20,041 nt of DNA from a virus. The position numbers were made by a program, and so were the translations under genes. Under the pieces are notes generated by a model, which was given only the letters and a program-made list of their open reading frames with translations, searched no databases and had not been told where the DNA came from. The stretch is taken from positions 1 to 20,041 of IMG/VR virus record IMGVR_UViG_3300043419_000229, one strand, 5' to 3'. Below, piece after piece: positions 6,495 through 18,932 of this stretch (position 1 is its first letter; each line of letters starts with the position of its first letter).

Positions 6495-7520
6495 ATGGCA
6501 CTATGGGGAAATAGAGATAGCAAATCTGCATCAGGCACTATTGCTATCGCAACTAACGGAGCAGTAACTGGCTCAAGCACTTTATTCACAACACAAGCAA
6601 AGATTGGTAACACAATCCGTGCTGGTGGCAGAGATTACGTAATCACAGCTATCGCTAGCAATACAGCTGCTACAGTAGAATCTGGAACTAATGGTGGTGC
6701 AATCACTGCTGTTACTGCAGGTGCATCATACACACTATCTGAGAAACCAGTATTCGTTTCTCAATCAGAGTCATCAAGCACTAGTGGTGTTCATGGTGAC
6801 GCATCTAAGATATTCGGTGTAGACACTATCAGTAATGGCGAAAACTATGATTCAGCTGGTCGTGTAGTTGAAGTGGGTGTTGCTCTTGCTGGTACTGGTT
6901 ATCTAGAAGTACCTAATGTTACTATCACTGGTGGTGGCGGTTCTGGTGCTGCAGCTACTGCAACTATCTCTGGTGGCTCAGTTACTGTTATTACATTGAC
7001 TAACAATGGTGGTTCTTACGAGAATGTTCCATCTGTTTTCGTAGACGTTCCTCGTCGCACTATCCCAACTTCTGGTGTTAATACTACTACTGAAGTTATC
7101 ACTTACACTGGTCATGGTTTAGCAACTGGTGATCGTATCAAATATTATGATGCTAATGGTACTACTATTGCTGGTCTAACTGACGAAACAATTTACTATG
7201 CTATCGCAGTTGACCCAAATACTTTCAAAGTTGCTACTACTGCTGCAAACGCTACTGCTGGAACTGCTGTTAACTTGACTGGTACTGGTAACAATGATCA
7301 GTACTTTGACTTGCTAGATGAAACTACTGCCACTGCAGTTGCTGCTCTTGGTGGTGGTAACGAAGAAGGTGAAAGCGTAAGTAACATCACTCACACTGGT
7401 TGGGTTCGTCGTACTACTGGTACTGGTGGTCGTGCTGGTCGTGTGTTCTATGAAACACTAGTTGCTGGTGGTTCTATCTCTGGCGACCAAGCTGACGATC
7501 GTCAGTTCCCAGACGACTAA
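6495..7520 (+). CDS. 341-aa glycine-rich virion structural protein
   Basis: A strong Shine-Dalgarno AAGGAG (6482-6487), 7 bases from the ATG, marks a highly expressed late gene. The protein begins MALWGNRDSKSASG and is built of beta modules rich in G, T, S, A and V. One is a repeat of the type GxGYxxxPxVxIxGGGGSGA (about 133-160), common in phage virion and fibre proteins. A second module (THGL/GHGLATGD...LTDETIYYAIAVD) and a conserved-looking C-terminus (GWVRRTTGTGGRAGRVFYE, ending ADDRQFPDD) follow. There are no cysteines, no signal peptide and no membrane helix. I recall similar MALWG-starting proteins with this C-terminus from T4-like cyanophage virions, without an exact role. A head, neck or tail-associated structural protein is the best call. 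Confidence 0.7.
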   Translation: MALWGNRDSKSASGTIAIATNGAVTGSSTLFTTQAKIGNTIRAGGRDYVITAIASNTAATVESGTNGGAITAVTAGASYTLSEKPVFVSQSESSSTSGVHGDASKIFGVDTISNGENYDSAGRVVEVGVALAGTGYLEVPNVTITGGGGSGAAATATISGGSVTVITLTNNGGSYENVPSVFVDVPRRTIPTSGVNTTTEVITYTGHGLATGDRIKYYDANGTTIAGLTDETIYYAIAVDPNTFKVATTAANATAGTAVNLTGTGNNDQYFDLLDETTATAVAALGGGNEEGESVSNITHTGWVRRTTGTGGRAGRVFYETLVAGGSISGDQADDRQFPDD

Positions 7521-7526
7521 TAAATA
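7517..7526 (+). promoter_or_regulatory. Candidate T4-type late promoter (CTAATAAATA)
   Basis: AATAAATA (7519-7526) matches the T4 late octamer TATAAATA at 7 of 8 positions. It overlaps the stop codon of the structural gene and sits 19 bases before the next ATG. By T4 geometry a transcript would begin near 7532, just before the hairpin at 7536-7556. It is the best late-promoter match in a usable position in the window. The chance of such a match in AT-rich DNA is not negligible. Confidence 0.4.
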
Positions 7527-12593: not shown

Positions 12594-12953
12594 ATGGAAC
12601 AAGAGAGAATTGCAAAATTGGAAGCCCAAGTGGAATCTATGCAGGAAGATGTGAAAGAGATGCGAACTGACATCAAAGACTTACACTCTCGTGTCACAAC
12701 TCAAACTCGAGAAATTGTCGATAAGATGGATGATATGCAAACTCGTTTGGAAAATAGAATGAATTTGCAAGCAGAAATGTCTAAACAGCAACATAATGAA
12801 ATGAAAAATGAGTTGCAAAACGACGTCAAACAAATTTCAGAAAGAGTTGATGTTCTTGAGAGATGGCGTTGGATGATTGTTGGTGGAGCAGTCGTTCTTG
12901 GTTACATCGTTGGTCACATGGATCTAATTGCTACGCTAATCGGATCAAAATAA
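12594..12953 (+). CDS. Coiled-coil protein with C-terminal membrane anchor (XhlA-like lysis accessory?)
   Basis: 119 aa. Residues 1-90 are a continuous highly charged coiled coil (KLEAQVESMQEDVKEMRTD, RLENRMNLQ, ISERVDVLERW). A single transmembrane helix follows at about 92-115 (WMIVGGAVVLGYIVGHMDLIATLI). This layout, with a V-L-E-R-W junction before one C-terminal helix, is that of XhlA/holin-associated proteins of other phages, which help holins or lysins at the membrane. It is also near the spanin genes, though separated by fibres. A tail-tip or membrane-anchored structural role is the alternative. The gene starts 9 bases after the fibre stop, with a modest GAGTG ribosome-binding site. It is the last gene before the promoter at 12956. 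Confidence 0.6.
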   Translation: MEQERIAKLEAQVESMQEDVKEMRTDIKDLHSRVTTQTREIVDKMDDMQTRLENRMNLQAEMSKQQHNEMKNELQNDVKQISERVDVLERWRWMIVGGAVVLGYIVGHMDLIATLIGSK

Positions 12954-12955
12954 AC

Positions 12956-12984
12956 TTGCTTTATAACAAGAGATAGAGTAAAAT
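12956..12984 (+). promoter_or_regulatory. Candidate sigma70-type promoter for the replication/nucleotide operon
   Basis: TTGCTT (12956-12961) and TAAAAT (12979-12984) are separated by exactly 17 bases. TAAAAT matches the -10 consensus TATAAT at 5 of 6 positions, and TTGCTT keeps the important TTG of the -35 box. A transcript would start near 12991, 18 bases before the primase ATG. It is the only spacer over 40 bases in the second half of the window and marks the change from structural to DNA-metabolism genes. This suggests an early, host-polymerase promoter. Confidence 0.5.
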
Positions 12985-13010
12985 AACTCTCTATCTCTTG
13001 GAGTTGTTAT
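12963..13010 (+). promoter_or_regulatory. Long inverted repeat spanning the promoter and primase start
   Basis: CAAGAGATAGAG (12967-12978) and CTCTATCTCTTG (12989-13000) are a perfect 12-bp inverted repeat with a 10-base loop that contains the -10 box. An alternative fold keeps 9 bp of it (12970-12978 with 12989-12997) and adds ATAACAA (12963-12969) paired with TTGTTAT (13004-13010). That buries the first two bases of the ATG at 13009 and bulges out TTGGAG. There is no T-run, so a terminator is unlikely. It may be an operator or an RNA start-codon switch. Confidence 0.55.
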
Positions 13011-14037
13011 GTTATACATTGATGCAAAGTACGCCCAAATACTGGGCAGTCGCTTGCGAAATTTCAAACAAAAAGACGAATATCTCTGGAACTATTCTTG
13101 TCCAGTGTGTGGTGACTCATCCAAAAATAAGTTGAAGGCACGTGGTTACATTTATCGTGCGAAGCAAGACTTATTTGTAAAGTGTCACAACTGTGGACAT
13201 GGCACAAACATTGGTAATCTTATCAAGTATGTTGACAGTCATTTGTATGACCAGTATGTATTGGAAAGATATAAGTCTGGTGCTTCGAAATATAACTCAC
13301 ACAAAGACGTAGCGGAAATGCTACCAGAACAGAATGAATTGCTTGAAGATGATTTTCTTAGTTCTCTTAAAAGGCTTGATAAACTTGCGCTAGAAAACCC
13401 ATCTCACCCAGCTATAAAGTATGTTGAAAACAGAAAGATACCACGTGACAAATGGTATCTTTTGTATTTTGCACCTAAGTTTAAAAAGTTCACTAACTCG
13501 GTATCACCCAAGTTTCAAGAACCAATCATCGATGAACATCCTAGAATGATCATCCCATACTTTACTCCAGCTGGTAAATGTTTTGCCTTTCAAGCTAGAG
13601 CGTATGGAAATGAGGAGCCTAAGTATTATACCATCAAGGTAGATGACAATGAGGAGAAAATTTATGGACTCGATCGTATTGATTATGGAAGAAGGATTTA
13701 TGTTGTTGAAGGACCAATTGACTCGCTATTTCTACCAAATGCAGTGGCTGTTTCAGGAAGCAGTTTTGATACCCCTACTATTCGTAAGCTGCTCACTAAT
13801 GCAACGATTGTGATGGACAATGAGCCAAGAAACAAAGATATCGTCAGACAGTTAGAAAAATATATTGAACTAGGTTACAGTGTTTGTATGTTCCCAAACA
13901 CAGTGCCACAAAAAGATATAAATGAGATGATTTTACATGGCGGTTTAACGTCGGAAGAAATTATTGATCTAATAAATACAAACACCTATAATGGTATTGC
14001 TGCCAAATTGAATTTTAGTACATGGAGAAAAAATTGA
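13009..14037 (+). CDS. 61: DNA primase, T4 gp61 family
   Basis: 342 aa, as long as T4 gp61, and collinear with it from memory. An N-terminal zinc ribbon has C31-P-V-C34-GDS and C59-H-N-C62, with KARGYIYRAK between. The middle contains LDKLA...HPAIKYVENRKIPRDKWY, as in gp61. The Toprim-type catalytic centre shows VVEGPIDSLF (E234) and VMDNEPRN (D270). The family makes short RNA primers on the lagging strand, in complex with the replicative helicase (gp41 in T4). The start has GGAG at 13000-13003, within the inverted repeat. It is the first gene of the promoter-led run and overlaps thyX by 16 bases. I see no missing key residue. Confidence 0.93.
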   Translation: MLYIDAKYAQILGSRLRNFKQKDEYLWNYSCPVCGDSSKNKLKARGYIYRAKQDLFVKCHNCGHGTNIGNLIKYVDSHLYDQYVLERYKSGASKYNSHKDVAEMLPEQNELLEDDFLSSLKRLDKLALENPSHPAIKYVENRKIPRDKWYLLYFAPKFKKFTNSVSPKFQEPIIDEHPRMIIPYFTPAGKCFAFQARAYGNEEPKYYTIKVDDNEEKIYGLDRIDYGRRIYVVEGPIDSLFLPNAVAVSGSSFDTPTIRKLLTNATIVMDNEPRNKDIVRQLEKYIELGYSVCMFPNTVPQKDINEMILHGGLTSEEIIDLINTNTYNGIAAKLNFSTWRKN

Positions 14038-18357: not shown

Positions 18358-18507
18358 ATGGCAACTAAATACTTTGAGTGTACAGAATGTGGAGCGAGAG
18401 GAAAGATCACTCTCAAAGGAGATGACCACGGCACCGAAGATTGCGTATATTGCCCAGTCTGTTCAGCTGACATCTACGAAGAAGAGGATCTCGATGATGA
18501 AGAATGA
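18358..18507 (+). CDS. 49-aa zinc-ribbon protein
   Basis: A short gene starting at the ATG at 18358 after AGGAAGGGG, three bases beyond the aldolase-family stop. It carries two Cys pairs, C8-T-E-C11 and C32-P-V-C35, about 20 residues apart, in a rubredoxin/zinc-ribbon layout, with an extra C29. An acidic tail (EEEDLDDEE) ends the protein. The stop overlaps the next start (ATGA). Such mini zinc ribbons are common in phage early regions and may bind RNA polymerase or nucleic acid. Function here is unknown. The acidic tail argues against simple DNA binding. Confidence 0.75.
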   Translation: MATKYFECTECGARGKITLKGDDHGTEDCVYCPVCSADIYEEEDLDDEE

Positions 18508-18932
18508 CTTGGTATTATCAAAACAAACCAGTAGAAGAACTGCCTGAGGATTGTGTAGGATTCGTGTATCTAATCACCAATCTAACTAACGATCGTAAAT
18601 ATATCGGTAAAAAACTTGCTAAGTTTTCTCGAACTACCACCAAGACAGTTACGCTAAAGAATGGTACTAAGAAGAAAAAGAAGATCCGTAGCAAGATCGA
18701 CTCTGATTGGCAAGAGTATTTCGGTTCATCAGCAGAACTAAATAAAGATATAGACTCTCTTGGGAAAGAAAACTTCTCAAGAGAGATTTTATATTTTTGT
18801 AAATCAAAAGCAGAATGTTCTTATGTTGAATCACGAGAGCAATTCTTCCGAAAGGTACTTGAGAGCACCGAATACTACAACAATAACATTATGTGTAGGA
18901 TTCACGGATCTCATATTTTAAACAAACTATGA
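18504..18932 (+). CDS. GIY-YIG nuclease-family protein
   Basis: 142 aa. The motif is GFVYLI (Y22) with YIGKK (Y33) 11 residues later, the GIY-YIG spacing in a variant form. A Lys-rich insert (LKNGTKKKKKIRSK) and a Trp/Tyr patch (DSDWQEYFGSS) follow. The C-terminal half holds ECSYVESREQFFRK, where E109 or E112 is the candidate catalytic acid. I recall a well-conserved family in T4-like aquatic phages with this composition and length. It is freestanding, so it may be a homing-type nuclease or one with a phage DNA-metabolism role. It is coupled on both sides by ATGA overlaps, which is tighter integration than expected of a recent homing-element arrival. Confidence 0.85.
   Translation: MTWYYQNKPVEELPEDCVGFVYLITNLTNDRKYIGKKLAKFSRTTTKTVTLKNGTKKKKKIRSKIDSDWQEYFGSSAELNKDIDSLGKENFSREILYFCKSKAECSYVESREQFFRKVLESTEYYNNNIMCRIHGSHILNKL

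Follow-up and report, generated by a model that had tools for sequence, protein, structure and literature searches.

The primase junction and its promoter

The DNA analysed here, referred to as the window, is a viral record of 20,041 bases from a T4-like phage. A DNA similarity search with the window returned no match among cultured phages, and its primase is ~48% identical to the primase of Methylophilales phage Melnitz by tblastn. Relatives of the window were fetched via the primase, and the resulting family consists of uncultured T4-like water phages. The family provided ~70 distinct related junctions overall, with a first set of 57 junctions and a thinned set of 48 representatives, and six near-complete relatives (G001-G006) were used to define the promoter class. 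The features of the junction are listed in Table 1.

Table 1. Features at and upstream of the primase junction in the window (SD, Shine-Dalgarno sequence).
Feature	Position	Strand	Remarks
Late promoter motif AATAAATA, T4-type	7519..7526	+	Just upstream of ATG 7545; may supply the late read-through RNA
119-aa coiled-coil/TM ORF	12594..12953	+	Closes the upstream block, which is probably late
-35 box TTGCTT	12956..12961	+	
Left arm CAAGAGATAGAG	12967..12978	+	Inside the promoter spacer; would be missing from promoter-started RNA
-10 box TAAAAT	12979..12984	+	Within hairpin loop 12979-12988
Right arm CTCTATCTCTTG	12989..13000	+	Spans the predicted start (~12991); its last base is also the first G of the SD
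SD GGAG	13000..13003	+	First base is part of the last stem pair
Alternative pairing ATAACAA/TTGTTAT	12963..13010	+	12963-12969 with 13004-13010; predicted minor, P about 0.01
DNA primase (T4 gp61-like)	13009..14037	+	PHROG 47 E=4e-81; tblastn to T4-like phages

The upstream ORF ends with a TAA stop codon at 12951-12953, which leaves 2 nt before the -35 box, and the homologous gene stops 1–3 nt before the -35 box in most relatives. The window features one T4-type late motif, at 7519, which precedes the block ending at 12953. This motif and similar ones are strongly enriched upstream of genes in the relatives, with 41 occurrences of AATAAATA versus 0 in the coding background. No convincing terminator was found in the window between the late motif and primase. 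Judged from the motif, the upstream block is probably transcribed late, and we infer that late RNA runs through to primase. PHROG 451 matches both genes (window 12594-14037), its N-terminal part corresponding to the upstream ORF and the remainder to primase, which suggests that the two are fused in some phages.

The primase promoter has a 17-nt spacer between the -35 and -10 boxes and was not listed by a generic promoter scan of the window. A TTG-type -35 box, a 17-bp spacer and a -10 box precede primase in every related junction examined, and the 17-bp spacing is present in 57/57 distinct junctions of the first set. The six near-complete relatives feature a sigma70-type early promoter class with the consensus cTTGaCTTtaATT..TGnGGTATAAT, which was found at ~105 sites versus 0 in reversed controls. 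The primase promoters and most uvsY promoters have a -35 element of TTG(C/A/T)TTT in common, not TTGACTT. Many promoters of the relatives are leaderless, with 6 nt between the -10 box and the ATG, and this spacing places the predicted start 7 nt after the -10 box, at ~12991 in the window, in agreement with the start proposed in the preliminary description. About one quarter of the early-type promoters in G001-G006 are leaderless and have no SD (e.g. G004 +42638 and G006 +45831). Similar leaders of 62-66 nt (..aaagtcctctctaagtc..) follow early promoters at G002 +164502, G005 +25491 and G006 +32705 and may represent a leader RNA. A MotA-dependent middle promoter, with a TGCTTTA-like -35 element, was also considered; a search for MotA in the six relatives gave no hit, and the control was silent too.

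The hairpin over the -10 box

The promoter is enclosed in an inverted repeat with perfect 12-bp arms and a 10-nt loop. The preliminary description had placed the -10 box in the loop, the left arm in the spacer between the -35 and -10 boxes, and the right arm at the predicted start, and this arrangement was confirmed in the window in all its coordinates. Its claim that RNA from the primase's own promoter lacks the left arm also holds for the predicted start, since the left arm lies upstream of it. No other perfect 12-bp stem with a 3-15 nt loop is present in the window, and none at all occurred in 20 first-order Markov copies of it. The region has a folding z of -3.3, with 0/200 shuffles equally stable, and the stem is predicted at P about 0.99 in read-through RNA. 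The same description had proposed a second fold that traps the ATG. This fold can be drawn, but it is 2.8 kcal/mol worse than the 12-bp stem and is not supported.

An Rfam search of the window gave no RNA family match at gathering score, and the hairpin was not listed by the terminator scan. The stem lacks the U-tract of an intrinsic terminator and is followed by GAGTTGTTATG. Elsewhere in the window, an ORF at 18504-18932 that looks GIY-YIG endonuclease-like by eye contains a 28-nt imperfect inverted repeat (18739-18801).

Conservation and covariation of the arms

Promoter and hairpin are both retained in ~70 distinct junctions, in which the arm sequences change together, and a stem with the -10 box in or beside the loop is present in nearly all 57 junctions of the first set. 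Comparison of own arms with swapped arms gave 522 versus 435 ± 7 Watson-Crick cells, 11 versus 27 ± 4 A.C cells, and 97 versus 102 ± 6 G.U cells; such swap controls remove the shared ancestry of the junctions only in part. The pattern was identical in the 48 thinned representatives. The retention of G.U together with the depletion of A.C argues for a hairpin in the coding-strand RNA rather than a symmetric DNA operator. The helix was recovered again in a MAFFT alignment of 38 sequences; by independent alignment it is 93.2% paired versus 36-54% in slid registers. The covariation score is 0.281 versus 0.219 ± 0.015, and 0/500 shuffles reach the former value.

The geometry differs among clades. 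The L260-type clade has a leader reduced to 7-8 nt and a 14-15 bp stem that contains the AUG and codon 2; the AUG is predicted to be unpaired at about 0.001 in the long RNA versus 0.5-0.8 in the short RNA. A near-leaderless RNA is predicted for this clade, for which a translation block would hardly be needed. Melnitz-type relatives have a near-leaderless primase mRNA, and the window-type hairpin is absent from them. The Melnitz-like primase junctions L308-L317 and L328 feature inverted repeats that lie entirely within the promoter spacer, e.g. TACAGG-N7-CCTGTA, ahead of the near-leaderless primase. Five relatives have a TTCGG terminator between the upstream gene and the promoter. The hairpin at these loci is weaker, with a duplex energy of -8.2 versus -12.7 elsewhere (p=0.002, n=5), and three of the five share one common left arm, which leaves few independent events.

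uvsY and other early promoters

In some relatives uvsY (PHROG 231), another gene of early type, lies directly behind the tail-tube gene (PHROG 45), a late gene. The group A uvsY junctions have the -10 box in a hairpin loop in a layout like that of primase, with arms unrelated to the primase arms, such as ATACTGC/GCAGTAT, ATGGGGTA/TACCCCAT and AGATTACTGT/ACAGTAATCT. The own arms of this group have a duplex energy of -11.8 versus -8.4 ± 0.5 kcal/mol for swapped arms, and the stems end some distance upstream of the SD. The group B junctions (L161, L165-L219) have no hairpin over the -10 box. Instead, the final codons of the tail-tube gene pair with the promoter spacer in a 13-14 bp hairpin, whose loop holds the -35 box and which lies about 25 nt from the ATG.

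A test set of 35 early promoters that lie ≤12 nt from an upstream stop codon was searched for embedded hairpins of -7.8 kcal/mol or better. These were found at primase (5/5), at uvsY (2/5) and at one other promoter, and the other early promoters that adjoin upstream genes mostly have none. When all early promoters behind late motifs were considered, the tendency to stronger hairpins was suggestive only (p=0.066). A strong hairpin without a U-tract recurs after a 91-93 aa gene in G001, G002, G004, G005 and G006, and the genes on either side of it lie on one strand (e.g. at stop 50097 of G005). A U-less hairpin in G002 with a -10-like loop was set aside, as it lies inside an apparent coding sequence. 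An RNA insulator that is built into early promoters where primase or uvsY directly follows a late operon, with unrelated arms and at least two geometries, and that would keep late RNA from expressing early genes in a temporal inverse of T4 e/soc, is a possibility that falls a little short of an even chance.

Ribosome access and the proposed mechanism

In the window, opening of the region -20..+13 costs 15-20 kcal/mol in the read-through RNA versus 3-8 in the short RNA, and opening of the 30S footprint costs ~8-13 kcal/mol extra in the read-through RNA, varying with the RNA ends. Across the family the extra opening cost is 8.8 with own leads versus 6.3 with swapped leads, own leads being higher in 46/57 junctions, and at other early promoters it is 3.6 ± 2.9. 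There is some variation regarding the position of the stem. In the window it adjoins the SD, while the SD or AUG is buried in L056, L068, L079 and the L260-type and the SD is left free in several relatives, e.g. the L016-type, which makes the step acted on less certain. Pairing of the SD/AUG with pre-start RNA in the 48 representatives is not in excess (29 versus 31-41 with swapped leads).

In the proposed mechanism, late RNA from the upstream block would carry both arms and fold, and the stem adjoining the SD would deny the 30S subunit ~12 nt of its landing zone, making late RNA a poor template for primase translation. RNA from the sigma70-type promoter would start inside the right arm and remain open to the ribosome; as it would have no left arm, the fold would be possible only in late read-through RNA. 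Primase synthesis would thus depend on the gene's own promoter and be shielded from late transcription, by the mechanism of T4 e, soc and I-TevI with early and late exchanged. Compensating mutations have kept the fold in dozens of relatives, and late messages are therefore probably barred from making primase. The reading of the hairpin as a read-through-specific RNA fold within promoter DNA that blocks primase translation from late RNA is given about an even chance. The sequence itself shows the promoter, the hairpin, the upstream late motif, their conservation, the arm covariation, the RNA-like tolerance of G.U and the second type of junction at uvsY; activity of the hairpin in vivo and a block at translation initiation are what we infer. 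The inverse of the T4 e/soc arrangement, which the preliminary description had put forward, is favoured by the arm covariation, the uvsY junction, the terminator loci and the clade with the AUG in the stem; burial of the SD/AUG in the long RNA differs among the junctions and, over the family, is no more frequent than with swapped leads.

Alternative explanations

The hairpin may instead form or protect the 3' end of the late mRNA as an exonuclease barrier, a processing site or a weak terminator. The overlap with the promoter would then be due to just 2 nt between the stop codon and the -35 box, and early RNA would be without the hairpin by geometry alone. Such a role fits the position of the hairpin, which at every junction comes just behind the stop codon of the late gene, its weakening where a canonical terminator is inserted, and the uvsY group B hairpin, which is clear of the ribosome-binding site (RBS). 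It also fits the finding that U-less hairpins are common after stop codons in these genomes and that a separate upstream hairpin accompanies 28/50 of the other early promoters that have space for one. Against it stand the missing U-tract, the right arms that in the window and in several clades extend to or over the SD/AUG and are matched by corresponding changes of the left arm, and the own leads that raise the footprint opening cost more than swapped ones. This role is judged the less likely of the two, yet it stays a serious rival to the translation block because family-wide SD/AUG pairing is no higher than with swapped leads.

The repeat could also be a DNA operator, as the preliminary description had suggested, with a phage or host repressor on the palindrome over the -10 box. 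The dyad is centred on the -10 box and the core TAGRGTA/TACTCTA recurs in many relatives, but the window holds no second copy of the palindrome, the arms differ among relatives and those of uvsY are unrelated, and departures to G.T are tolerated while A.C is avoided, which is unlike a symmetric DNA site. An operator is therefore improbable. A DNA-level structure, in which a cruciform or single-strand hairpin aids or hinders promoter opening, would suit a -10 box in the loop and arms free to vary in sequence. It is absent from most other early promoters, and a G.T on the coding strand is an A.C on the template, so a two-strand cruciform should not tolerate G.T; this structure is considered very improbable. 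Chance or a by-product of conserved promoter sequence can be practically discounted, for although part of the left core (GGGTATAAT) fits the general promoter consensus, the right arm plays no part in the promoter, its shuffled versions reach a duplex energy of only -5.6 versus -12.3 kcal/mol for own arms, and the covariation of the arms contradicts chance.

Comparison with known systems

Phages carry early and late genes mixed on one strand with few terminators. To our knowledge, few studies have asked how they keep late messages from yielding early replication proteins. In IS10 and IS50, RNA from an external promoter covers the transposase RBS by folding of the element end, which RNA from the element's own promoter cannot do. 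Those systems concern a mobile element and its transposase, whereas the window concerns a phage temporal programme. The intrinsic terminators of the same phages (e.g. L026, L039, L075) likewise stand between the upstream gene and the primase promoter; unlike the window hairpin, they possess a U-tract and precede the promoter instead of overlying it.

The nearest known systems are the read-through hairpins reviewed for T4 e, soc, 49, I-TevI/II/III and segB and for Aeh1 mobE (PMC3014915, PMC2988022). Of these genes it was stated that "they are all late genes" (PMC2988022), and in the case of T4 e such a fold is able to cut synthesis about 100-fold (PMC3014915). The window resembles them in that the start region would be folded into a hairpin in the long RNA and the RNA from the nearer promoter would be without the 5' arm; in the T4-type systems this latter RNA is translated. 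Theirs are late genes on early or middle RNA, whereas here an early-type gene lies behind late genes, and burial of the SD is only partial in the window. Given the reversed temporal order, the window hairpin is not classed as a T4-type member, though it would work alike. The seg43(25) gene of Aeromonas phage 25 also has a stable hairpin that ends just upstream of a free RBS (PMC2988022), but it is a homing endonuclease gene, whereas in the window the hairpin surrounds a promoter of early type and its conservation is wide. The inverse case, an early gene behind late RNA, had no earlier description in the literature searched, the coverage of which was incomplete. If the proposal is true, a promoter that doubles as a read-through silencer needs no protein and almost no extra DNA, and it would define a class in uncultured T4-like phages that can be recognised from sequence and put to the test. 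The hairpin trick of T4 would then gain a second temporal direction.
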